Shown: positions 6,603 to 18,451 of the stretch, one piece after another
Layout: the number at the start of each line of letters is the position of its first letter
Position numbering within the stretch: the first letter of the stretch is position 1
Program-made: the position numbers and the translations under genes
The notes under the pieces: generated by a model
Seen by the model: the letters and a program-made list of their open reading frames with translations, nothing else
Databases searched by the model: none
Told to the model about the DNA's origin: nothing
Assembly (NCBI GenBank): GCA_934675095.1
Contig: CAKUPC010000040.1
Location: 1-18,451 of the forward strand
From: an uncultured Bacteroidales bacterium
Lineage (GTDB): Bacteria > Bacteroidota > Bacteroidia > Bacteroidales > UBA932
DNA length: 18,451 nt
Reading direction: 5' to 3'

Positions 6603-6605
6603 CTT

Positions 6606-6646
6606 CCGTGTGCGTACACGGAATATCGCTTTTATTTCGTATCTTG
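6606..6646 (+). promoter_or_regulatory. LacI-type palindromic operator and promoter of the ROK kinase gene
   Basis: CCGTGTGCGTACACGG (6606-6621) is palindromic at 14 of 16 positions with a central CG, the form of LacI-family operators. Eighteen nt later comes TATCTTG (6640-6646), a shortened -7 element. The palindrome therefore occupies the place of the -33 box. The whole 41-bp block matches 35 of 41 positions in the EIIC promoter (8951-8991). The distance from palindrome to ATG is 50 nt here and 52 nt there. Confidence 0.75.
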
Positions 6647-6671
6647 TGAGATATTTGAAAATTACGGGATT

Positions 6672-7502
6672 ATGAATGTACTTGGAATAGACATCGGCGG
6701 AACATCGATTGCCGTCGGAAAGGTTGAGGACGGGAAGATTGTCAGGCAGGTGAGGGCCGGGACGCGGGCTGCTGAGGGCGGTGATGTAACTCTCGGAGTG
6801 CTGAAAAGCCTTGTGGCAGAGCTGATTGACGGAGAAACGAGGGCGATTGGCGTCGGAGTACCGAGTGTCGTTGACAGAAAGAGAGGCGTCGCCTACAATG
6901 TGCAGAACATCGCCGGCTGGGATGAGGTCGATATACGCGGGATTCTCGAAGGGGAGTTCGGGCTTCCAGTGTTTGTCGATAACGACGCCAACTGCTTCGC
7001 CTTCGGGGAGAAGATTTTCGGAAAGGGACGCGAGTTTCAGAACTTTGTCGGGGTCACGCTCGGCACGGGCGTCGGCTCCGGCATCATCAGCGCTGGCCGG
7101 CTGCTTCCGGACGCCAACTGCGGCTCCGGGGAATTCGGCGAGGTGCGTGTCGGGGGCGTGAAGTTCGACAACTGGTGCGGCAGCCATTTCTTTCCTGACG
7201 AGACGGGAATGTCAGGAGCGGAACTCTCTGCCTTGGCAGGAACCGGAGACGCGGGGGCGCTCAGAGCCTTCGAGGAATACGGACGCCGTCTGTCCGAACT
7301 TGTCCGGCTGATAGTGCTCGTGCTCGACCCTGAGGCGGTCATCTTCGGCGGCTCCATCGCAAAGTCCTTCGACCTTTTCGGCGACGCCATCCGTGCAAAC
7401 CTCACTGACTTCCCCTATCCGAAGTCGATTGAGAAACTGAAAATCCTCGCCTCTGACGGCAACGACAGCGGTGTTCTCGGTGCCGCGTCGCTGTGCTTCT
7501 GA
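6672..7502 (+). CDS. ROK family sugar kinase
   Basis: This 276-aa protein from ATG 6672 starts MNVLGIDIGGTS, the phosphate-1 loop of the ROK/actin-like ATPase fold. Asp105 in VDNDANC is the expected catalytic base, GTGVGSGI (131-138) is the phosphate-2 segment, and DPEAVIFGGSIA (219-230) is the adenosine loop. The zinc-binding CxCGxxGCxE motif of classical ROK proteins is missing: GEFGEV (153-158) has Val where the zinc His is expected, and only one Cys (169) remains nearby. The frame is open far upstream, but the ROK signature fixes this start. The enzyme should phosphorylate a sugar or keto-sugar with ATP in the cytoplasm. Sharing an operator with the EIIC permease and lying near kduI suggest a sugar-acid or related substrate. 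The exact substrate is unknown. Confidence 0.88.
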   Translation: MNVLGIDIGGTSIAVGKVEDGKIVRQVRAGTRAAEGGDVTLGVLKSLVAELIDGETRAIGVGVPSVVDRKRGVAYNVQNIAGWDEVDIRGILEGEFGLPVFVDNDANCFAFGEKIFGKGREFQNFVGVTLGTGVGSGIISAGRLLPDANCGSGEFGEVRVGGVKFDNWCGSHFFPDETGMSGAELSALAGTGDAGALRAFEEYGRRLSELVRLIVLVLDPEAVIFGGSIAKSFDLFGDAIRANLTDFPYPKSIEKLKILASDGNDSGVLGAASLCF

Positions 7503-7568
7503 GAGTCGGGGCTCGGACAAATCTTCTTCGTTTTCGCCCGCTGTCGTCGTGCTTGCCTTGGGTTTATG

Positions 7569-7608
7569 GCAGATTTTGGTGAAAATTGCTGTGAGTTTCA
7601 GGCAGTTT
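7569..7608 (+). repeat. 40-bp direct repeat, copy B (upstream of the HTCS pseudogene)
   Basis: This copy is 34/40 identical to 6563-6602, so the pair brackets the ROK gene. Its last segment TTTCAGGCA (7596-7604) also pairs perfectly with TGCCTGAAA (7620-7628), forming an inverted repeat around a -7 element. Confidence 0.7.
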
Positions 7609-7628
7609 TTGTATATTTGTGCCTGAAA
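7596..7628 (+). promoter_or_regulatory. Promoter element inside a 9-bp inverted repeat, probable old HTCS promoter
   Basis: TATATTTG (7612-7619) fits the -7 consensus. It lies in the 15-nt spacer between TTTCAGGCA (7596-7604) and its exact complement TGCCTGAAA (7620-7628). It faces the remains of the HTCS gene. Intact coding sequence no longer follows it, because the downstream bases switch within about 15 nt to an antisense DUF4143 fragment. Confidence 0.55.
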
Positions 7629-7639
7629 CTATAGGCAAA

Positions 7640-7955
7640 CATCAAATCTGGTTCGCGCAGCGGCACCTGCTTTTCTGTTTTGTTATGCTCTTGAACGAGT
7701 CGTTTTATTTCCAAAAGATGTTTGGCTCCTTCTTCTATCTCACGACTGCCAAGTTTGCATTCTATGAGAGCGTAGCACCCATCGTCAAGATGAAGCACGA
7801 GGTCGGCTTCCAGTCCGTAGCGGTCACGATAGTATGACAAATGGTTGCCAAAGACGACAAGCAGCATGAATCAAGTCTTCAATCTTCATATCTGAAGTAA
7901 TGCCATCTATGTCCAGGTCTTGATTATCGAACAAATCCTTTAGTGAAATCCTCAT
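7640..7955 (-). pseudogene. Fragment of a DUF4143-type AAA ATPase, antisense inside the HTCS ruin
   Basis: Minus-strand translation of about 7867-7640 contains YYRDRYGLEADLVLHL, CYALIECKLGSREIEEG and AKHLLEIKRLVQEHNKTEKQ. These are the C-terminal part of the DUF4143 (PD-(D/E)xK-like) region found at the end of a common Bacteroidales AAA ATPase family. No ATPase domain is present. The frame runs off the family at about 7640 into the promoter-proximal repeat, so the true C-terminus is missing. Upstream, the open frame from an ATG at 7955 is in a different frame and stops in the middle, so a frameshift or second breakpoint lies near 7865. It is a dead scrap, probably brought in by recombination. 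I am sure of the family of the central part and unsure of the exact ends. Confidence 0.7.
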
Positions 7956-8869
7956 CTCCATCGCCCGTTTCGATGCAGGGGCTCTCCCCGAGCCTCTTGC
8001 GCGGCGCTGTCCGGACGGGCTTCAGGCTCCTGTCGTGCTCATTGAGGTGAACGATTCCGGAAGGGGCATACCTGAGGATGACCTTGAAAGGATTTTTGCT
8101 CCGTTTTATCGTGTTGATGAGCGCAGAAACGGCGACCTGTACGGGACTGGAACAGGCCTTCACCTTACAAAGAGCATCGTGGAAATGCACGGGGGAGTAA
8201 CAGGCTCTCGCGAAGGCCTCCGAATGGCATCCGGACCTTGTCGTGTGCGACATAATAATGCCGGAGATGGACGGACTGGAACTCCTCCGCAGGCTGAAAT
8301 CGGACTCCGAAACCTCACGGATTCCGGTGATTCTGCTCACGGCGCGGACCTCGGTAGAACAGACCCGCGAGGGACTCCGCGCCGGGGCTGACGACTATGT
8401 CACCAAGCCGTTCGACATCCGTCTTCTCAAGGCCAGAATTGACTCGCTGATTGAAAGCCGCGTGCATCTGAAGGAAATGTTTCTCAAGGAGTTCAGCGTC
8501 GAACTCTCCGACGGGGAGATGAACCACACTGACAGATATTTCCTGTCCCGGGCCTGCGACTATGTCAAGGACCACCTCTCCGATGAGAACCTCAGCATCG
8601 AGGGCTTCGGACGGAGCATGCACCTGAGCCGGACGCAGCTCTATCGTAAGATAAAGTCCATGACGGGGCTCTCCCCGAGCGCGTTCGTGTGCGAACTTCG
8701 TCTGAAAATCGCCGCCTCGCTCCTGTCCGAGACCAATCTGAACATCTCCGAGGTTGCCTACAAGGTCGGATTCAGTTCACCGTCCTACTTCACGACCAGC
8801 TTCCGGCGTCTCTACGGGATGTCCCCGAAGGAATATGCCTCCCGTCGGCAGGCTCAACTTCCGGAGTAG
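7942..8869 (+). pseudogene. Decayed hybrid two-component system (HATPase-REC-AraC remnant)
   Basis: Three pieces of an HTCS survive in order. Part of the histidine-kinase ATPase domain reads from about 7945 to 8193, with NDSGRGIP (N/G1 region), FAPFYRVD and GTGTGLHLTKSIVEMHGG (G2). A different frame then takes over at about 8201 (QALAKASEWHPD) with the second half of a receiver domain: phosphoacceptor Asp in VVCDIIMPEMDG (codon 8249-8251), LLTART and VTKPFD. A complete AraC DNA-binding domain follows, ending at 8869. The sensor domain, membrane helix, HisKA domain, end of the ATPase domain and first half of the receiver are lost. The 208-aa frame from GTG 8243 could still be translated as a half-receiver plus AraC protein, but the absent acidic pocket means no normal phosphorylation. 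It was probably once the regulator of this locus. Confidence 0.85.
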
Positions 8870-8950
8870 CCCACTTAGAAACAGTTTCTTGATTTGGAGT
8901 TTGATATTGTCAGGAAATGTTATAAGTTTTCAGCCATTATATATAAAATT

Positions 8951-8991
8951 CCGTGCGCGTACACGGAGTTTCGGATTTATTTCGTATATTG
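8951..8991 (+). promoter_or_regulatory. LacI-type palindromic operator and promoter of the EIIC gene
   Basis: CCGTGCGCGTACACGG (8951-8966) differs at one base from the palindrome before the ROK gene. Eighteen nt later comes TATATTG (8985-8991) as the -7 element, the same spacing as at the ROK gene. The sequence between (TTTATTTCGTAT) is shared. ATG 9019 lies 52 nt after the palindrome. A degenerate TTTCAGCCA (8928-8936) upstream resembles the TTTCAGGCA of the 40-bp repeats. Confidence 0.75.
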
Positions 8992-9018
8992 CAGAAATTT
9001 TTGAGAAACAACATATTT

Positions 9019-10431
9019 ATGGAAAAAGTCTTCAGCTATATCATCGGTCTCGGTGCGGCCGTGATGATGCCGGTAATCTTCACGATTCTCGGCATTTGCA
9101 TCGGAATCAAGCCCGGGAAGGCACTCAAGAGCGGACTTCTTGTGGGAGTCGGTTTTGTCGGACTTTCTGTCGTGACCGGGCTGCTCACCAGTGCGCTCGG
9201 CCCGGCGCTCTCGAAGGTGGTCGAGATTTACGGGCTTCAGCTAAAGGTGTTCGACATGGGCTGGCCGGCTGCTGCCTCTGTGGCCTATAACACTGCTGTC
9301 GGTGCGCTCATCATTCCGGTCTGCCTCGGGGTGAACCTTCTGATGCTCCTCACCAAGACCACACGCACGGTGAACATCGACCTGTGGAACTACTGGCATT
9401 TCGCCTTCATCGGGGCGGTCGTCTATTTCGCGATGGACAGCCTTCTCTGGGGATTTTTCGCGGCAATCGTATGCTACATCATAACCCTCGTCCTTGCCGA
9501 CCGCACGGCGTCCAAGTTTCAGGGATTCTACGACGGCATGGAGGGGATATCAATCCCGCAGCCGTTCTGCCAGGGATTCGTGCCTTTCGCCGAGGCAATC
9601 AATGCCGGACTTGACAGGATTCCGGGCTTCGACAAGGTTAACATCGACGCGGACGGAATGAAGAAGAAGTTCGGACTCTTCGGAGAGCCGCTTTTCCTCG
9701 GAGTCATCATCGGAATCATCATCGGCTGCCTCTCCTGCCGGGGCTGGGGCGAGATTGTCGAGAAGATTCCGTACATACTCGGTCTCGGAATAAAAATCGG
9801 CGCCGTGATGGAACTCATCCCGCGCATCACCTCGCTCTTCATCGAGGGGCTCAAGCCAATCTCCGAAGCGACTAAGAGTCTGATTGCCCGCAAGTTCAAG
9901 GGCGCGTCCGGAGTCAACATCGGAATGAGTCCGGCGCTCGTCATCGGCCATCCGACCACTCTCGTCGTGTCGCTGCTTCTTATCCCTGTGACGCTCATCC
10001 TTGCGGTTGTGCTCCCTGGCAACGAGTTCCTTCCGCTCGCCTCGCTTGCCGGAATGTTCTACATTTTCCCGATGATTCTCCCGATTACCAAGGGCAATGT
10101 CGTCAAGACTTTCATAATCGGGCTTGTTCTGGTGCTCGGAGGACTCTACCTCGTGACTGACCTCGCCCCGTATTTCACACTCGCGGCGCAGGATGTCTAT
10201 GCACAGACCGGCGACGCTGCCGTGGCCATTCCGGAAGGATTTCAGGGCGGTTCGCTCGACTTTGCCTCCAGCCCTCTCGCATGGGTGATTTTTCACCTTA
10301 CTCACAGCTGCAAGTGGGTCGGCATCGTGGTCCTCGTCCTTTCGACGGCTGCTCTGATGGTGTGGAACCGCATCAAGATTGTGAAGGCTCAGAAGGCTGC
10401 GGCGGATGTCGCCAAGACCGAAAATGAATAA
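9019..10431 (+). CDS. Galactitol-type PTS EIIC permease without partner subunits
   Basis: This 470-aa polytopic protein matches the EIIC-Gat (GatC/SgcC) family. It starts MEKVFSYIIGLGAAVMMPVI, with GIKPGKALKSGLLVGVGFVG near residue 30, a central loop around GMEGISIPQPFCQGFVPFAEA, and the late GVNIGMSPALVIGHPTT segment. About ten to twelve membrane helices fill a length close to E. coli GatC (451 aa). The frame extends 22 codons upstream, but ATG 9019 gives the family start and follows the promoter at 8951-8991. In enteric bacteria EIIC works with EIIA and EIIB, which phosphorylate the sugar during uptake. No EIIA, EIIB, HPr or EI is encoded here, and Bacteroidota mostly lack a PTS. A PTS-independent role with the ROK kinase is my inference. 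KduI follows 76 bp downstream, so the two are probably co-transcribed. Confidence 0.85.
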   Translation: MEKVFSYIIGLGAAVMMPVIFTILGICIGIKPGKALKSGLLVGVGFVGLSVVTGLLTSALGPALSKVVEIYGLQLKVFDMGWPAAASVAYNTAVGALIIPVCLGVNLLMLLTKTTRTVNIDLWNYWHFAFIGAVVYFAMDSLLWGFFAAIVCYIITLVLADRTASKFQGFYDGMEGISIPQPFCQGFVPFAEAINAGLDRIPGFDKVNIDADGMKKKFGLFGEPLFLGVIIGIIIGCLSCRGWGEIVEKIPYILGLGIKIGAVMELIPRITSLFIEGLKPISEATKSLIARKFKGASGVNIGMSPALVIGHPTTLVVSLLLIPVTLILAVVLPGNEFLPLASLAGMFYIFPMILPITKGNVVKTFIIGLVLVLGGLYLVTDLAPYFTLAAQDVYAQTGDAAVAIPEGFQGGSLDFASSPLAWVIFHLTHSCKWVGIVVLVLSTAALMVWNRIKIVKAQKAAADVAKTENE

Positions 10432-10507
10432 TCCCGAATCCATCGTTCGCCGGACGAATAAGACTGGGAATAAAATAAGACGAAAATTTTGAATAGAGTA
10501 AAATAAT

Positions 10508-11458
10508 ATGAATATGAAAAAGACAATATTTGTTGCGGCGATTATGTCGCTTTCGGCACTCACCGCATTCGGACAGGTGAACTACCGCGTCCAGACAGCC
10601 TGCCACCCCGATGATGTGAAACACTATGACACGCAGCGCCTTCGCAGCGCCTTCGTCATGGAAAAGGTGATGACCCCGGACGAAATCAACCTCACCTACA
10701 CTCTCTATGACCGCCTGATTTACGGCGGCGCGATGCCCGTGAGCAAGACCCTCGTCCTCGAAACTTTCGACGAGCTCAAGGCGGAGCATTTCCTCGACCG
10801 CAGGGAACTCGGAGTCATCAACATAGCGGGTGACGGCATCGTGACCGTCGATGGAAAGGAATATCCCCTCAAGTACAAGGAGGCTCTCTATGTCGGCTGC
10901 GGCAAGAAGGAAGTGACTTTCAGAAGCGTCGATCCGCAGAAGCCCGCGAAGTTCTACATCAACTCCGCCCCGGCCTACAAGGAGTATGTCACACAGCTGA
11001 TTACGACCGACAAGAAGGCTGACCCTAAGAAATATGCCTTCGCAATCTCGGATCATTACGGCAAGATGGAGGACTCCAACGACCGCGTCGTGAACCAGCT
11101 CATCGTGTGGCCGGTTCTCAGCCGCGTCAAGGGAGGCGGAACCAACCAGCTTCAGATGGGACTCACCGAACTGGCCCCGGGCTCTGTCTGGAACACGATG
11201 CCCGCCCACACCCACACGCGCCGTATGGAGGCATATTTCTATTTTAATGTCGCCGAGGGCAACGCAATCTGTCACCTGATGGGCGAGCCGAAGGAGGAAA
11301 GGCTTCTCTGGCTCCACAACGAGCAGGCCGTGACCTCACCGGAATGGTCAATCCACGCCGCAGCCGGCACCCGCAACTACACCTTCATCTGGGGTATGGG
11401 CGGCGAAAACCTCAACTACGCCGACAAGGACGAAATCCCTTATCTCGAAATGAGGTAG
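10508..11458 (+). CDS. kduI: 5-keto-4-deoxyuronate isomerase (KduI) with a Sec signal peptide
   Basis: KduI converts 4-deoxy-L-threo-5-hexosulose uronate, formed from unsaturated uronates released by lyases, to 3-deoxy-D-glycero-2,5-hexodiulosonate. This 316-aa copy shows the cupin metal site His234, His236 and Glu241 ([14 protein letters not shown]) plus His283 ([11 protein letters not shown]), and the family segments [14 protein letters not shown] and [11 protein letters not shown]. The unusual part is the N-terminus. [20 protein letters not shown] is a convincing signal peptide with a likely cut before QVNYRV, where normal cytoplasmic KduI of about 280 aa would begin. Residue 24 is encoded by GTG (10577) after GGACAG, so a shorter cytoplasmic form is possible. 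Start codons at 10508 and 10514 both keep the signal. The gene follows the EIIC permease by 76 bp, which ties it to uptake of uronate products. Confidence 0.88.
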
Positions 11459-11495: not shown

Positions 11496-14400
11496 ATGAA
11501 AGGTTGTTCTGACCGCATAGGATTATTCCGCAGCACGGGCGTTGTGTCCGCGCTGCGGATTGCGCTTTTGTGCTTTGTGCCGCTGTTTGCCGGCGCCGGG
11601 GTTGCTGATGCGTTCAGAATGCCGTATTTCAGCCATCTCTCTGTTGAAGACGGACTTTCTCAGAGCACGGTCTTTTCCATCTGTCAGGACAGCACCGGAT
11701 TCATGTGGTTCGGGACGATGGACGGGCTCAGCCGCTACGACGGCTATGAATTTCGTGTGTGGCGTCATACTCCTGCGGACAGCGCCTCAATATCTTCCGA
11801 CATAGTCAGGCTTGTCTATTCCGACGGCAGCGGAAGAATTTGGGCCGGCACGGTGAACGGGCTGTCGCTCTATGATGCGGACTCGGACTCATTCCGCAAC
11901 TGGGCTGTGGGTGAAGTCGGGGGAATTGCGGAGGCAGAGGGCGGTGAACTCTATGTTGCGGCAGGCGGGCAACTGATGATTTTCAATCCTGAGACATTGC
12001 AATGGCGAAGCGGACTTCTTGGCGGCGGAGTGCTTCCGACGATGCTGTGTCGCGATGGAAACACGCTCTGGATAGCGACAGACGGGGCGGGACTGTTCCG
12101 GCTCGACATTGTTGACGGCGAGGTAAGAAAGGTTCCTGAATTTGCATCGGAAAAACCGATAAATTCGATTTTCGCATACGGCGAGACTCTTTGGATTGCC
12201 ACGGAGGGGGACGGCCTGTGGTGTCTTTCGCTCAACGGGAAGAGCTGCACCTCCGCAGAGAGATTCACCGGAGGCGACGGATTGCCGTCCAATTACGCGC
12301 GTTCTCTTTCAGCCGACGACTCGGGGCGCATCTGGGTCGGGACTTATGGCGGTCTGGGCATACTTGAGGACGGTGTCTTCAATTCCGTCCGGAGCGACAC
12401 TTTTCAGGAAGGAGCCCTGTCCCAGAGTTCTGTCCGCAGTATCTGTCGTGACAACCAGGGAGGTATGTGGCTCGGAACCTATTTCGGGGGACTGAACTAT
12501 TGGCATCCCCTGCGCAATCATTTCTCCTCAATCAAAAGACAGAGACATTACAGTTCCTTGAATGATGATGTGGTGAGTTGTCTGGCCGAGGATGGAAACG
12601 GATATGTCTGGATAGGAACCAACACCGGTGGCGTGAACCGTTGGGACAGTTCCAGTGGGACATTCCGCTATTGGATGCTGAAGTCCGGAGACGGCAGTTT
12701 TCCGGAATCCAATGATATAAAGGCACTTTGGGCGGATGACGCGGCAGGAAAGGTCTATGTCGGCGCACATGCCGGCGGTCTGTCCTGCATCAGCATGACC
12801 ACCGGTGTCGTCACTCGTTTCGACTCAAAGTCACCTTCGTCTGCGGAACGCCTGCTGGATGTCTATTCCATAGTCCCGGAGCCGTCCTCGTCAAGGCTTT
12901 GGCTCGGGACTCTCAGCGGTGTGCGGTTGTTTGACAGGCGCACGGGGGAGATATATGTTCCGGAGTTTTCCGATTCCGCAAAGTCGTCTGCAATGGCATC
13001 GGCGCGTGCCCTTATGCTCGATTCCTCCGGACATTTGTGGGCAGGGGGAGGCAGCGGTCTTATGGTTTATTCAGTCTCTGATGACCGGCTGTCGCTTTGC
13101 CGGGAAATCGCGGCGCCTTCCGGACTGTATGTGCACAGCTTTCTTGAAGTGCCCGGCAAGTCCGTCTGGGTCGGGACACGTGAGGGACTGCTGTGCTATG
13201 GTCTTTCCGACGGCACCTGGAATCACTACACGGTTGAAGACGGACTCCCGAGCAACATTGTCGATGGGCTTGAGGCTGATGAGTACGGCATGATATGGGT
13301 GAGCACTGACATGGGAATCAGCCGTTTCAACCCCTACACGTCCTCGTTCCGCAACTTTACTGTCGAAGACGGGCTTTCCGGAAGTCAGTTCAACCCTTCT
13401 TCGAGCCTTCGCAGGAGCGGAGGGGAGATTCTTTTTGGCGGTATCAACGGCATAACCATGTTCCGTCCGGAACTTTTTTCCGGCAATCCATATTCTCCTC
13501 AACCGGTAATTACAGGTTTTCGGCTTTCGGGAAAATATGCTTCCGAGAATGTCCGTTTCAATGTGCCGGAGATAAGGCTGTCGCATGACAGGAACTCTTT
13601 CTCGGTATCCTTCTCTGTCCCTGACTATCTTTCAGGTCACCACGGCACCTTTTCCTACATTCTCGAGGGGCATGATGAGGACTGGACTGAAACATGCTCA
13701 TCGAGGACTGCCTCCTGGTCCAATCTTCCTCACGGGGAATATTTCTTCCGTCTGAAATCGGCCAACAGTGACGGCAAATGGTGCGATTCAGAGACGACCC
13801 TTAAGATAGTTGTCCGCCCCGTGTGGTACATGACGCTGCCGGCTCTGATTGTGTTCGCTTTTATGGCCGCTTTGGCGTTTGTGGCGTTATATCTCTTGAT
13901 AGTCCGGAAAAAAGACAGGCAGAAAAAGGATGAACTGGCGGAGCAGGAGGCCGTTCATCAGGAGGAACTCCAGCAGATGAAGACGCGCTTTTTCATAAAC
14001 ATATCTCATGAGATGCGCACGCCTCTGATGCTGATTGTCAATCCGTTGTCTGAAATGATAGCCCGCTGCAACGATATGTGGATGCGTAGGCAGCTGAAAT
14101 ATCTCGACCGCAACGCCCGCCGTCTGCTGCACCTTGTGAACCAGCTCATAGACTACCGTCGTGCGGAGCTTGGAGTCTTTCGGCTGAGTGTCCGCCCGGA
14201 GCCGGTGATGAAGATAATCCGCGAGAATTGGTCCTATTACGAGGTTCTTGCGCAGAAAAAGAAACTGAAGTACCGTCTTGAGTCTTCCGTGGGGGACGCT
14301 TCCGCTCTCGTAGATGCGCAGTATCTTGAGCTGATCCTCAACAATCTGCTGTCCAATGCATTCAAATATACGGCCTCAGGCTCCGTCACTCTCTCGGCGG

Positions 14401-15521
14401 AACTCACTCCGGAAGACCTTGTACTGAAGGTTGCCGACACCGGTTCCGGCATCCCGAAAGACAGGCAGGAGCAGATTTTCGAGCGGTTCTATCAGGTGGA
14501 GCGGGACAACATCGGAAGCGGGATAGGCCTGTCCCTTGTTCAGCGGCTTGTTGAACTTCACCACGGCAAGATTGAGATTGACAGCGAACCGGGGAAGGGC
14601 TCGACTTTCACTGTGCATCTTCCGCAGTCCTCCGGCGCATATTCGGCGGAGGAACTCGGCGGGGTGCAGGAAATGCATTCGTCAAATGCGCGTGAGAGGT
14701 ATATACTCGATTCAGAGGAAATCGACAGTTCTGAACCGGCGGACGGCGCTTCTCCGGTTCAGGAAGAGACCGGTGGCCTGCTGTTGATTGTTGAGGACAA
14801 CGAGGATATCGCCGCCTATCTTCGCGACTCGCTTTCGGACGGCTTTGAGATACGCCTTGCAAGGAACGGCGAGCAGGCTCTTGCCGCGGTGAACGATTCT
14901 CTTCCGGATTTGGTGATTACGGATTTGAATATGCCTGTGATGGACGGGTTGAAGCTTTGTTCGCGGCTTAAGCAGAATGTGGAGACCTCGGACATTCCTG
15001 TCATAGTCATTTCCTCGAGCACTGATTCCAAAGATCAGCTCGCGGCATTCCGGGCCGGCGCCGATGACTTTATGTCCAAGCCGTTCCAGCTTTCCATACT
15101 CCAGAACAAGATTCGCAATATGCTGCGGACGCGGGCGAGGGTTATGGACAAGGCCGCAAAGTCTTCGGAACTGGAGTCGGGGAGGGCCGGACTTTCAGCC
15201 TACGACGAGGAACTGCTTGCCAAGGCTGCCGCGATAGTCGGGAAAAATATGGACAACGCGGACTTCTCCACGGCCGACTTTGCCGCCGAGATGGGCATGT
15301 CCCGCTCGAACCTCCACCTCAAGCTGAAGGCTCTCACCGGAGAGTCTGCCCTGGACTTCATCCGCCGCATCCGCTTCAAGGAGGCCTGCCGCCTGCTCAA
15401 GGACGGCCGCTACTCCATCTCCGTCATCAGCGACCTCGTCGGCTTCAACAGCCCGTCCTACTTCGCCACCTGCTTCAAACGCTACATGGGCTGTCTCCCG
15501 ACCGAATGGGGCAAACGCTAA
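11496..15521 (+). CDS. Hybrid two-component system regulator (HTCS), full length
   Basis: This 1341-aa one-piece sensor-regulator has the full HTCS layout. A signal peptide (1-39, ending AGAGVADA) is followed by a large periplasmic sensor of Reg_prop beta-propeller repeats (LSVEDGLSQSTVFSI, GFMWFGTMDGLSRYDG and later GYVWIGTNTGGVNRWD) and a Y_Y_Y domain (about 700-775). A membrane helix lies at about 780-805. HisKA has the phospho-His838 in NISHEMRTPL, and HATPase has NNLLSNAFKY (about 948) and DTGSGIP. The receiver has EDNED, Asp1143 in ITDLNMPVMDG and SKPF. A C-terminal AraC domain (about 1245-1338) completes it. Such proteins sense an oligosaccharide in the periplasm and activate a polysaccharide utilisation locus. 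It starts 37 nt after kduI on the same strand and ends at a terminator, so its target is likely this locus or the neighbouring susD one. Confidence 0.96.
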   Translation: MKGCSDRIGLFRSTGVVSALRIALLCFVPLFAGAGVADAFRMPYFSHLSVEDGLSQSTVFSICQDSTGFMWFGTMDGLSRYDGYEFRVWRHTPADSASISSDIVRLVYSDGSGRIWAGTVNGLSLYDADSDSFRNWAVGEVGGIAEAEGGELYVAAGGQLMIFNPETLQWRSGLLGGGVLPTMLCRDGNTLWIATDGAGLFRLDIVDGEVRKVPEFASEKPINSIFAYGETLWIATEGDGLWCLSLNGKSCTSAERFTGGDGLPSNYARSLSADDSGRIWVGTYGGLGILEDGVFNSVRSDTFQEGALSQSSVRSICRDNQGGMWLGTYFGGLNYWHPLRNHFSSIKRQRHYSSLNDDVVSCLAEDGNGYVWIGTNTGGVNRWDSSSGTFRYWMLKSGDGSFPESNDIKALWADDAAGKVYVGAHAGGLSCISMTTGVVTRFDSKSPSSAERLLDVYSIVPEPSSSRLWLGTLSGVRLFDRRTGEIYVPEFSDSAKSSAMASARALMLDSSGHLWAGGGSGLMVYSVSDDRLSLCREIAAPSGLYVHSFLEVPGKSVWVGTREGLLCYGLSDGTWNHYTVEDGLPSNIVDGLEADEYGMIWVSTDMGISRFNPYTSSFRNFTVEDGLSGSQFNPSSSLRRSGGEILFGGINGITMFRPELFSGNPYSPQPVITGFRLSGKYASENVRFNVPEIRLSHDRNSFSVSFSVPDYLSGHHGTFSYILEGHDEDWTETCSSRTASWSNLPHGEYFFRLKSANSDGKWCDSETTLKIVVRPVWYMTLPALIVFAFMAALAFVALYLLIVRKKDRQKKDELAEQEAVHQEELQQMKTRFFINISHEMRTPLMLIVNPLSEMIARCNDMWMRRQLKYLDRNARRLLHLVNQLIDYRRAELGVFRLSVRPEPVMKIIRENWSYYEVLAQKKKLKYRLESSVGDASALVDAQYLELILNNLLSNAFKYTASGSVTLSAELTPEDLVLKVADTGSGIPKDRQEQIFERFYQVERDNIGSGIGLSLVQRLVELHHGKIEIDSEPGKGSTFTVHLPQSSGAYSAEELGGVQEMHSSNARERYILDSEEIDSSEPADGASPVQEETGGLLLIVEDNEDIAAYLRDSLSDGFEIRLARNGEQALAAVNDSLPDLVITDLNMPVMDGLKLCSRLKQNVETSDIPVIVISSSTDSKDQLAAFRAGADDFMSKPFQLSILQNKIRNMLRTRARVMDKAAKSSELESGRAGLSAYDEELLAKAAAIVGKNMDNADFSTADFAAEMGMSRSNLHLKLKALTGESALDFIRRIRFKEACRLLKDGRYSISVISDLVGFNSPSYFATCFKRYMGCLPTEWGKR

Positions 15522-15796: not shown

Positions 15797-17734
15797 TTAG
15801 TCCGCGCTAGTGGTTGACGATGTATTTGTACGTTTGGCACCTATTGTGTTTGATATGCCTTCGTCAAAGACGTACTCTCCGTATGTTTCCATACTTGGAT
15901 TCCAGGTTTCAGACATTGGCTTTCCTACCAGTTTTTTGAATGAGTTTATTGTCATTGACTTGTAGGCAGAATCTCCTATTCCTGCTCCGGTTGTTGCATT
16001 TGAAGCAGAATTGTAATACACATTATTGGTCGTAACCCCCGTAGCATTAGGGGCAGAAGTGTTGATTTTGAATGAAACTATTTGCGATTTAGTATCCTCT
16101 GTCTTATTGCATTCAAAGAAAAGATTCTTGGCCATCCCGAAAGACGTTGCGATGTCTCCGACAATTATCATATTTCGGTCAGAAATGATATTGTCGAACG
16201 TTGATGATTCCAAATTGAATGAATCAATCGTCATCTTCGCCCCATAGACAAGCCTGAACTTCGTTGCCGCAGATGACGATTCAGCATAGAAGATATTATT
16301 CTTGAGGGATATACTCTGCGCTGAAGAGGCATTCTCGCTTTTTACATTGAGCAGATAGACATTCTCTCCGCTGATACCGAATTCACAATCTTCAACAGTA
16401 AGTTTGAGTTTTGTAAAGACATTGACAGTATTGAATTCGAAAAAGTTCTTCCCTATGTTCTTGAAATGGCAATTTGAGAATGCTATATTTCCGAAAGTCT
16501 TAAAAGCATGACCATCAGTATTTATATTCTGAGCAAAGGCATTTTTAGCACCGATAGTGCATCTGAGATTTGCAAGAAGCATAAGTTCTCCTCCGTCATA
16601 CGGTCTTACTTGTCTGTAAAAATCCACATTGGATCTCATGGCAGCATCTGCACCCACAACAATGAGAGACTTGTATGCTGAAGCGGCATTGAATTTCGCT
16701 TTTGTACAACTTGAGGTTATGAAATATACTCCAGTGTCAGATGCGGCGAGGTTGAAACTTTTGTCCCGTCTGTCAGACACAAGCACTCCCCCCGGATTGG
16801 TAGTCTTGTTGAATGTGATGCCGCAGAAAGTCAGATTGAAGCCATCATTGTATTTCACGAAATAGTTTTCGTGCTTGGCATAATCCGTAGAGGCAAGCGC
16901 TTTCATCGTAAGGATGCTGTTCCTCTCTGCAATCTGGCTATATTTTATGGAAGTCCTCTTTGCGACCTGACTACCGTCCGTTTTGGAAAGTATTACTGTA
17001 AAGCCTTCCTCGAACTCGACCGGAAGAATAGTGAAGAAATAGTCACCGGCAGCGAGAGCGCTTCCGTCAGATTTGCGGAGTGTTACATAAGTTTCCGCCT
17101 TGTTTGCAGTCGGTGTGATTGTGGGATTTCCATTGTTGTAATCAATTGTGAATGCCCCGGCAAGAATCTCGTCTTTGTTGCCCATAAGGGTAATCGATTT
17201 TACATCATCCATGTCTTCAGCTAATGTGAACTTAATGTGGGAGCATACATTCTTAAATAAAAGTTGATTATTCTCATCTGCTTTGGCAACCATTATTGCC
17301 GTATTGCTGGCAAAAGATCCTATAGTCGCCTCTTGAACGGAGGGCAGGATTGTTGATATGGTATTAGCGGCTAAATCAATCTTGGATTCTGTAATATTAG
17401 GATATAGAGCATAAAAAACATCTGCATCTTCTGGAACACTCCCTGAAAATGAAAGGAAATTCTCAGATATCGTAAATTTATTCTTGTGGTTTTCTGTTAT
17501 AGCCGAATTGTCAAAGACACTGATAATGTCATTTTTAAGCCAATTAACAGACCTTCCGTCATTATCAAGTATTGTCTTGCTTTCCGGTTGTCCTTCGAGG
17601 TTTGCAGAGAACTGCACGTCAATGTATTTTACTTCCTTTGCAGGAGTGTTAGGCTCTTCAATTATTTCCTTGTTGCAGGCTACCGCAGCTGCTGCGACAG
17701 CGAGCATGATTACAAAATGCTTTTTCATGTTCAT
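15797..17734 (-). CDS. Surface lipoprotein, fimbrillin-like N-terminus and repeat-rich C-terminus
   Basis: This 645-aa protein has a lipoprotein signal (MKKHFVIMLAVAAAAVAC, Cys20 lipidated) followed by an acidic NKEIIEEPNTP linker, which fits export to the outer-membrane surface. Residues of about 35-290 have the pattern of Bacteroidales fimbrillin-like lipoproteins (VQFSANLEGQPESKTIL, WLKNDIISVFD, FSGSVPEDADVFYALYP). The remaining part (about 320-620) repeats short beta-strand and Asn-rich segments such as NIAFSNCHFKNIGKNFFEF and ISLKNNIFYAESS, suggestive of a parallel beta-helix that may bind glycan. No catalytic motif is clear. The coding sequence is visibly more AT-rich than the rest of the window. 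It starts 8 nt after the 47-aa peptide gene. I infer a surface glycan-binding or adhesive role linked to the upstream susD, but the exact family is uncertain. Confidence 0.75.
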   Translation of the reverse strand: MNMKKHFVIMLAVAAAAVACNKEIIEEPNTPAKEVKYIDVQFSANLEGQPESKTILDNDGRSVNWLKNDIISVFDNSAITENHKNKFTISENFLSFSGSVPEDADVFYALYPNITESKIDLAANTISTILPSVQEATIGSFASNTAIMVAKADENNQLLFKNVCSHIKFTLAEDMDDVKSITLMGNKDEILAGAFTIDYNNGNPTITPTANKAETYVTLRKSDGSALAAGDYFFTILPVEFEEGFTVILSKTDGSQVAKRTSIKYSQIAERNSILTMKALASTDYAKHENYFVKYNDGFNLTFCGITFNKTTNPGGVLVSDRRDKSFNLAASDTGVYFITSSCTKAKFNAASAYKSLIVVGADAAMRSNVDFYRQVRPYDGGELMLLANLRCTIGAKNAFAQNINTDGHAFKTFGNIAFSNCHFKNIGKNFFEFNTVNVFTKLKLTVEDCEFGISGENVYLLNVKSENASSAQSISLKNNIFYAESSSAATKFRLVYGAKMTIDSFNLESSTFDNIISDRNMIIVGDIATSFGMAKNLFFECNKTEDTKSQIVSFKINTSAPNATGVTTNNVYYNSASNATTGAGIGDSAYKSMTINSFKKLVGKPMSETWNPSMETYGEYVFDEGISNTIGAKRTNTSSTTSAD

Positions 17735-18093: not shown

Positions 18094-18451
18094 CTATTTC
18101 CAGCCCTCGTTCTGCCGGCACTGCGGCATCATGTCCAGATCCCGCTGCGGAATCGGGAGCACCTCGTGGCGGCCCTTGACGGTGTAGTCGGCGATGATGT
18201 AGAGCGACGGCATCTGCTCATGCCAGTCGGCGCACTTTCCGGCGGTCTCCATGATGGTCTCGTAGTAGATGCCCCAGCGGACAAGATCCTGGCGGCGGTG
18301 TCCCTCGAAGGCGAGTTCGTAGGCACGCTCGTCGCGGACAGCCTGTTGGAACTGCTCGTAGCTCAGGCCTGTCGAGAGGTCAGAAACTGACGATGCCGTG
18401 CCGACAGGGAGGCCGCAGGCGCGGCGGCGCACGATGTTGACTGCGGAATAG
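18094..18451 (-). CDS. SusD/RagB outer-membrane glycan-binding lipoprotein, C-terminal part only
   Basis: The frame enters from the right edge of the window and gives the last 119 residues. They match the SusD/RagB C-terminus: a VRRRA segment, then ERAYELAFEGHRRQDLVRWG, then HEVLPIPQRDLDMMPQCRQNEGW just before the stop at 18094. These motifs (RxxEL.fEg.Rw.DL.R.g; lPiP..el..np...qN.g) are highly typical. SusD sits on a SusC TonB-dependent transporter at the cell surface and binds oligosaccharides for import. SusC should lie further right on the same strand, outside the window. The glycan cannot be deduced. Downstream are the inverted repeat, the 47-aa peptide and the lipoprotein on the same strand. 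Confidence 0.95.
   Translation of the reverse strand, partial: YSAVNIVRRRACGLPVGTASSVSDLSTGLSYEQFQQAVRDERAYELAFEGHRRQDLVRWGIYYETIMETAGKCADWHEQMPSLYIIADYTVKGRHEVLPIPQRDLDMMPQCRQNEGWK

Follow-up and report, generated by a model that had tools for sequence, protein, structure and literature searches.

An exported KduI paired with a PTS-less EIIC permease: a candidate uptake route for unsaturated uronates in Bacteroidales

How does the product of unsaturated-uronate breakdown cross the inner membrane in Bacteroidales? Published reconstructions, for instance in the accessible part of PMC3878776, leave this step as a gap. The question is raised by a stretch of 18,451 nucleotides from an uncultured Bacteroidales bacterium (assembly GCA_934675095.1, contig CAKUPC010000040.1; hereafter the window), which encodes a ROK-family kinase, an EIIC-GAT permease of the phosphotransferase system (PTS) type and a predicted exported isomerase, KduI. 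We consider it likely that the last two belong to a stand-alone uptake route for the unsaturated-uronate pathway, with an exported KduI, a PTS-less EIIC as carrier and a cytoplasmic finish.

The N-terminus of the window KduI combines a positive start, a hydrophobic core and small residues ahead of the predicted cleavage site, and the N-termini of its relatives are equally signal-like: the initial annotation, which gave this protein a signal peptide, is borne out for a Sec-type N-terminus, judged by sequence inspection. In alignment with the exported-type KduI, the match of solved chain 9kd0 begins one residue past the predicted cleavage site; chain 9kcz is similar to the cytosolic type. The 9kd0 entry shows an exported-type KduI handled without its signal peptide, and its depositors may know parts of what follows. 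Residues H234, H236, E241 and H283, which we take from their positions in E. coli KduI to be the metal-binding His/His/Glu/His set, are invariant in an 11-sequence alignment. The neighbouring permease had been described as a GatC-type EIIC devoid of its partners, and this also holds: it matches PF03611, and no EIIA, EIIB, HPr or EI family was found among the window proteins scanned by profile. Against TIGR00827 it scores 386 bits, under the 542-bit cut-off.

The pairing of EIIC with a signal-peptide KduI is real and general in Bacteroidales. A genome scan by EIIC alignment gave 552 confirmed loci, the best 80 of which (L001-L080) have best segments at 73-87% identity; close relatives of the window EIIC and KduI carry the source labels Candidatus Cryptobacteroides, Bacteroidales and Rikenellaceae. 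Some KduI match is present at 75 of the 80 loci, and a whole KduI within 4.5 kb at 72. KduI lies 3' of EIIC on the same strand in 75/80, no more than 150 bp away in 54. Seven of the eight loci without a whole KduI are broken or cut short: KduI is in pieces at L015, its pieces lie at the locus end at L029 and L042, and L021, L033, L059 and L061 show no KduI match with only 75 to 1,631 bases remaining downstream. The eighth, L027, is weighed below. The initial annotation had suggested looking in Bacteroidota genomes for EIIC together with signal-peptide KduI and ROK kinase; the first two are paired at 72 of the 80 loci, and the ROK kinase is not among the recurrent neighbour clusters of EIIC.

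A KduI was called exported when it had a 10-residue hydrophobic stretch and its start codon lay 14-45 residues ahead of the mature part. Every KduI within 4.5 kb of an EIIC passes this rule (76/76: 72 in L001-L080 and four in L127-L143, two of the latter being the same genes as in the first set; some of L081-L156 repeat genomes counted before). Away from EIIC, 14 rows represent 13 distinct genes (those of L006 and L143 are the same), all of which appear to lack a signal peptide: 13 rows fail the rule, and L131, which alone passes, is counted as signal-less because its open frame extends upstream past the start that its siblings use. By motif, the exported type was found at 15 of 16 further loci from the search of the G001 group (the other, L096, is the second half of a split gene) and at 8 of 10 loci in L147-L156. 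The two exceptions, L151 and L152, carry an EIIC-adjacent KduI of the other, cytosolic subfamily, yet with a signal-like N-terminus. In an unrooted tree of 61 of the 103 distinct KduI sequences they fall on the side of 12 cytosolic KduIs (100/100), and a second KduI of L006, this one away from EIIC, sits in the exported group yet has no signal peptide. The predicted export signal thus tracks the EIIC neighbour rather than strictly the family branch, apparently with repeated gain or loss; the unrooted tree does not put these events in order. The second L006 KduI (L006:16201-17124) adjoins a reductase that matches D-mannonate oxidoreductase.

The EIIC itself is patchily distributed and, in the samples searched, occurs only in near relatives of the query: 15 of 101 genomes in the G001 group, 3 of 395 in a phylum sample and 10 of 393 in an order sample, where two further matches, weak and partial, were left out of the count.

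Could the EIIC work in a PTS after all, phosphorylating its substrate with partners encoded elsewhere? Of the 80 loci, 49 led to a genome each, and these 49 genomes were searched with the profiles PF05524 (EI), PF00381 (HPr), PF02302 (EIIB) and PF00359 (EIIA). Many are metagenome-assembled genomes or drafts; the sequence of Phocaeicola vulgatus ATCC 8482 is complete. No match to any of the four was found in 48 of the 49, other EIIA and EIIB families lying outside the search, while 14 control genomes were positive for EI in 7, HPr in 7, EIIB in 6 and EIIA in 7 cases. The absence first noted in the window therefore extends to its relatives, and because EI, HPr, EIIA and EIIB went undetected, the EIIC cannot act as a PTS in these 48 genomes: a working PTS is refuted there if the drafts are reasonably complete. 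In its favour stands genome G044, where HPr, EI and a mannitol EIICBA occur; the adjoining EIIA and EIIB genes of PTS-type relatives and the substitutions in the substrate pocket, both described next, speak further against it, and we regard it as extremely unlikely. In G044 the HPr, EI, fused EIICBA and mannitol-1-phosphate dehydrogenase-type genes lie on one contig (L144, contig C24, 8000-18000), which also bears genes similar to Bacteroidales ones; the set may be either acquired or a contaminant.

For comparison with PTS-type members, 25 of 452 matching plasmid records were listed and six examined. Among the matches listed, the nearest PTS-type relatives are about 26-40% identical to the EIIC. 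Genes for EIIA and EIIB adjoin the EIIC in five of the six records, and the sixth (Phocaeicola, 81%) is unannotated. In an alignment of 94 Bacteroidal EIICs with five PTS-type members, the two groups share 41 columns, and two are fixed but different. In these two, an Asp of the PTS-type proteins (5/5) is replaced by Ser304 in 92 of the 94 and by Thr in two, and a Phe by Tyr348 in all 94. Besides them, a His (4/5) is replaced by Gln181 in all 94. The GatC-type EIIC of solved chain 9u82 shares the PF03611 domain, with a profile match over positions 3-459, and by alignment keeps Asp and His at the equivalents of 304 and 181; the Bacteroidal proteins differ from this type in having no EIIA, EIIB, HPr or EI, in falling under the TIGR00827 cut-off and in carrying Ser and Gln for the Asp and the mostly conserved His. 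EIIC-GAT and the ascorbate EIIC UlaA belong to the same superfamily. The substrate contacts of UlaA include Asp314 and His194 (PMC6048161), and the spacing of these residues, the sole basis of the comparison, suggests that they occupy the positions of Ser304 and Gln181.

What the carrier would face on either side of the membrane can be read from its neighbours, which follow two arrangements. In Bacteroides and Phocaeicola, GH105 and pectinesterase genes on the opposite strand are followed by EIIC, KduI and a major facilitator superfamily (MFS) transporter; in the Muribaculaceae- and Cryptobacteroides-type arrangement the order is a reductase, sometimes DUF4861, EIIC, KduI, a PfkB kinase and a 2-keto-3-deoxy-6-phosphogluconate (KDPG) aldolase. 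Across the 80 loci a reductase occurs at 49, an MFS gene at 33, both at 6 and neither at 4, with PfkB at 37, aldolase at 31 and DUF4861 at 20. The 54 fully flanked loci hold KduI (53), reductase (32), MFS (26), PfkB (25) and aldolase (20), as well as GH88/105 (22), lyase, pectinesterase or GH28 (21), or either of these classes (28). The best NCBIfam model for the reductase is gluconate 5-dehydrogenase, above cut-off, and the KDPG aldolase model is likewise matched above cut-off. A signal peptide is absent from the 111 reductase, PfkB and aldolase rows inspected, two reductase rows not being judgeable; the rule flagged L039, L034 and L033 through a hydrophobic stretch upstream of the apparent start. 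Since these neighbours have no signal peptide, the product of an exported KduI must cross the inner membrane. With KduI outside, the reductase inside and the EIIC constantly co-encoded, the EIIC would be the best candidate for its carrier.

A gene fusion also speaks for this role. In L001, the nearest relative, DUF4861 (PF16153) is fused to the EIIC in a single 888-aa frame (L001:8735-11401) and preceded by a lipoprotein-like signal; the DUF4861 proteins of EIIC loci resemble lipoproteins or exported proteins. A DUF4861 model (predicted local distance difference test, pLDDT, 87) finds its best PDB matches in the beta-domains of GH38 mannosidases, at TM-scores around 0.4-0.5 that imply no function. 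In Muribaculaceae-type genomes, an oxidoreductase like the glutamate-synthase small subunit lies beside EIIC-KduI (L016:12437-13753 and similar; cluster 8, 16 loci).

We propose the following route. Lyases and GH88/GH105 hydrolases outside the cytoplasm would release 5-keto-4-deoxyuronate (DHU, or DKI), which the exported KduI would convert to 2,5-diketo-3-deoxygluconate (DKII) in the periplasm. EIIC-GAT, its PTS partners lost, would move DKII across the inner membrane unphosphorylated, probably by the elevator movement of its superfamily and probably coupled to protons. Inside, a DhuD/KduD-type reductase would form 2-keto-3-deoxygluconate (KDG), the PfkB kinase KDPG, and the aldolase would split the latter. 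With no phosphorelay to serve the EIIC, entry would have to occur by secondary transport, and phosphorylation by the downstream kinase would act as a trap for the imported compound. The activities, cell locations, transported molecule and coupling in this scheme are those predicted from families, signal peptides, linkage and the relatives' lack of PTS genes, with the window genome presumed to resemble its relatives. Periplasmic isomerisation followed by phosphorylation-independent entry, as the initial annotation had proposed, still appears the best reading, because the exported KduI is a constant partner and the PTS is undetected in 48 of 49 genomes. Its evolutionary form, in which a captured PTS permease subunit was stripped of its phosphorelay and became a dedicated secondary carrier of DKII while KduI moved to the periplasm, splitting the pathway across the inner membrane, seems to us somewhat more probable than otherwise.

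Gene linkage alone cannot separate the substrate of KduI from its product, and the EIIC might instead import un-isomerised DHU or the unsaturated uronate, leaving the periplasmic KduI another use, such as detoxifying or storing the keto-aldehyde. The KduI complement of the genomes bears on this. KduI is present in 48 of the 49, and 14 have two matches. In 12 Bacteroides/Phocaeicola-type genomes the second KduI is whole, of the cytosolic type (280 aa, with no room for a signal peptide) and mostly adjoins a reductase and DUF4861, so some DHU is handled inside; the second copy is signal-less in G005 and a fragment in G044. In 35 of the 49, however, the EIIC-adjacent copy is the only whole KduI found, so imported DHU would meet no KduI inside. 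We therefore hold direct import of DHU to be rather unlikely.

Alternatively the EIIC, merely co-regulated with the exported KduI, could carry a different component of the polysaccharide, be it galacturonate, a polyol or a neutral sugar: the permease family is named for the galactitol PTS, the operons sit within polysaccharide loci rich in sugars, and 33 of the 80 loci offer an MFS gene. Yet the polysaccharide varies from locus to locus, and what recurs is KduI with the reductase, kinase and aldolase. Upstream of the L001 genes lie a PL8-type lyase, a GH88-like protein and a sulfatase, at L019 there is a heparinase II/III, and Bacteroides has GH105 and pectinesterases. Judged from these pectin-, chondroitin- and heparin-type genes, it is the product and not the polysaccharide that the loci have in common, and import of another sugar looks unlikely.

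A number of points weigh against DKII import through the EIIC. No GH88/105 was recognised at 32 of the 54 fully flanked loci, and 26 of them show no recognised GH88/105, lyase, pectinesterase or GH28, few probes having been used. The MFS transporter near EIIC is an alternative carrier. The reductase matches the KduD model, and the PfkB kinase the KDG/KDGal kinase models, only under cut-off, and the window itself has no reductase, PfkB kinase or aldolase. L027 combines EIIC, reductase, kinase and aldolase with no KduI in the locus and none found in the complete set of contigs of its genome, G019, and G044 carries a mannitol-type PTS, the sole exception among the 49 EIIC-bearing genomes. The signal-peptide calls rest on our own hydropathy-and-start rule, and an AlphaFold2 model of the EIIC built with 15 close sequences was unusable (pLDDT 42). 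Finally, DKII is anionic, so plain facilitated diffusion would be opposed by the membrane potential.

How does the ROK kinase fit in? The 16-bp near-palindromes at 6606 and 8951 precede the ROK and EIIC genes: allowing two mismatches, the window holds three matches against 0.03 expected, one of them being the 6606 site on the other strand, and none of 200 shuffles reaches three. The 43-bp stretches that begin at 6604 and 8949 are identical at 37 positions. The initial annotation's shared ROK/EIIC control region is thus real, but it consists of separate operator copies: with about 1.5 kb of apparent gene debris intervening (7598-8869), and each gene having a copy of its own, the two are not a single transcription unit. 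In 1.57 Mb made up of the 80 EIIC loci, 12 cytosolic-kduI loci and the window, the pattern YCGTKYRCGNNMACGR has 26 distinct sites. All except one fall in the 300-bp stretches ahead of EIIC, kduI or the window ROK, which amount to 1.8% of the bases: 15 precede EIIC, 8 precede cytosolic kduI (of 12), two are the window sites and one lies elsewhere (L044). This enrichment is descriptive only, as the pattern was written after such sites had been seen.

From its central CG, the operator has the look of a LacI-family type. A strict motif scan found no LacI gene and a looser one two overlapping loci; by motif none was recognised near EIIC, and one stands beside the 63% ROK relative in L127. In B. thetaiotaomicron, the LacI regulator KdgR (BT0487) governs glucuronate and galacturonate use, as the accessible part of PMC3878776 has it. 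A presumed LacI-type regulator would act on EIIC-kduI, on the operon of cytosolic kduI in Bacteroides and, in the genome of the window, on ROK as well. The operator common to ROK and EIIC belongs to this wider regulon, and ROK is therefore probably co-regulated with EIIC-kduI.

Its catalytic role in the pathway is another matter. That ROK would phosphorylate DKII or KDG, as the initial annotation supposed, might be taken from the common operator and from a window that has no PfkB kinase. The relatives' operons hold their own PfkB kinase and KDPG aldolase, however, and ROK does not recur among the neighbours of EIIC. Among 31 genomes searched, the nearest relative (63% identity) is in G086; its neighbours on contig C3 are a LacI-type regulator and a SusC/SusD-like pair, and the EIIC of that genome is on C15. 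Relatives at 34-44% identity occupy other glycan loci: one directly precedes a GH2 protein with an exo-beta-glucosaminidase domain (L145), and others lie beside GH2-, GH20- and GH92-like genes, as judged by eye. Nine Bacteroides/Phocaeicola-type genomes yielded a full-length ROK relative only in G016 (41%). At its GEFGE motif region the window ROK has Glu where the usual His stands in ExGH, presumably the substrate motif of ROK sugar kinases; 15 relatives (34-63%) likewise have other residues there. The assignment as pathway kinase is thus very unlikely, and a hexose or hexosamine is the more likely substrate.

Elements of the proposed route have counterparts in known systems. KdgT, the KDG transporter of Enterobacteria, imports intermediates of the same pathway, belongs to an unrelated family and works where KduI is cytoplasmic. 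The KduI-KduD (DKI-DKII-KDG) pathway of Dickeya and E. coli and the hybrid kduI-dhuD clusters of Bacteroidota (PMC12838403) share the enzyme family and the order of steps, and in our relatives, too, reductase, kinase and aldolase adjoin KduI. Unlike in those clusters, KduI here has a signal peptide and an EIIC partner; the accessible text of that source mentions neither a signal peptide nor a PTS. UlaA is an elevator-type carrier, the movement proposed here for EIIC, and is itself PTS-dependent (PMC6048161, accessible part). Mutant PTS EIICs move xylose or glucose (PMC10989795, PMC12089948), and one of the PF03611 family carries out facilitated diffusion of xylose with no phosphorylation in ptsI-negative E. 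coli (PMC10989795), as far as the accessible parts of these sources go; they are laboratory mutants of PTS-bearing E. coli, whereas the present lineage is natural and PTS-free. No description of an exported KduI, or of a PTS-less EIIC beside KduI, was found in the openly licensed literature, most subscription papers lying outside that scope, nor were papers on DUF4861, 9KD0, 9KCZ, 9U82, 9U84, 9U8E or 9U8H found there.

What is seen here is apparently a PTS subunit repurposed as a stand-alone carrier within a known uronate pathway. The linkage puts forward a carrier and a compartment as candidates in the culturable Phocaeicola vulgatus and Bacteroides faecis, and points to a possible undescribed uptake of pectin and glycosaminoglycan breakdown products in many gut Bacteroidales. 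If correct, it would be a natural case of a PTS permease operating without a PTS, and labelling the EIIC of these genomes 'PTS galactitol transporter subunit IIC', as published (P0043), would mislead.

Table 1. Features of the window, with positions counted from its first nucleotide.
Feature	Position	Strand	Basis or remark
Operator-like near-palindrome CCGTGTGCGTACACGG	6606..6621	.	5' of ROK; same pattern 5' of relatives' EIIC and kduI
ROK-family kinase, 276 aa	6672..7502	+	PF00480, 145.6 bits
DUF4143 protein remnant (gene debris)	7598..7867	-	PF13635 positions 128-159 of 160, under cut-off
Broken hybrid two-component regulator, remnant	about 8035..8869	+	Response_reg from profile position 48; HTH_18
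Operator-like near-palindrome CCGTGCGCGTACACGG	8951..8966	.	5' of EIIC; conserved in relatives
EIIC-GAT permease, 470 aa	9019..10431	+	PF03611, 252 bits
KduI Sec-type signal peptide, 22 aa	10508..10573	+	Predicted cleavage before Q23
Exported KduI (predicted), 5-dehydro-4-deoxy-D-glucuronate isomerase	10508..11458	+	NF002091, full-length, 369 bits; cut-off 250
Hybrid two-component system (HTCS) regulator	11496..15521	+	Reg_prop, Y_Y_Y, HisKA, HATPase, receiver, HTH_18
Lipoprotein-like protein	15797..17734	-	No Pfam match; homologues (cluster 29) in relatives
SusD-like gene end	18094..18450	-	By eye

The remaining features of the window are listed in Table 1. The debris between ROK and EIIC suggests a past rearrangement of the locus; its larger remnant joins an ATPase-like piece (by eye), half a receiver and an AraC HTH in different frames. 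The HTCS regulator starts 37 bp 3' of kduI. Homologues of the lipoprotein-like protein lie upstream of the reductase (DhuD)-EIIC genes in L001 and L002.

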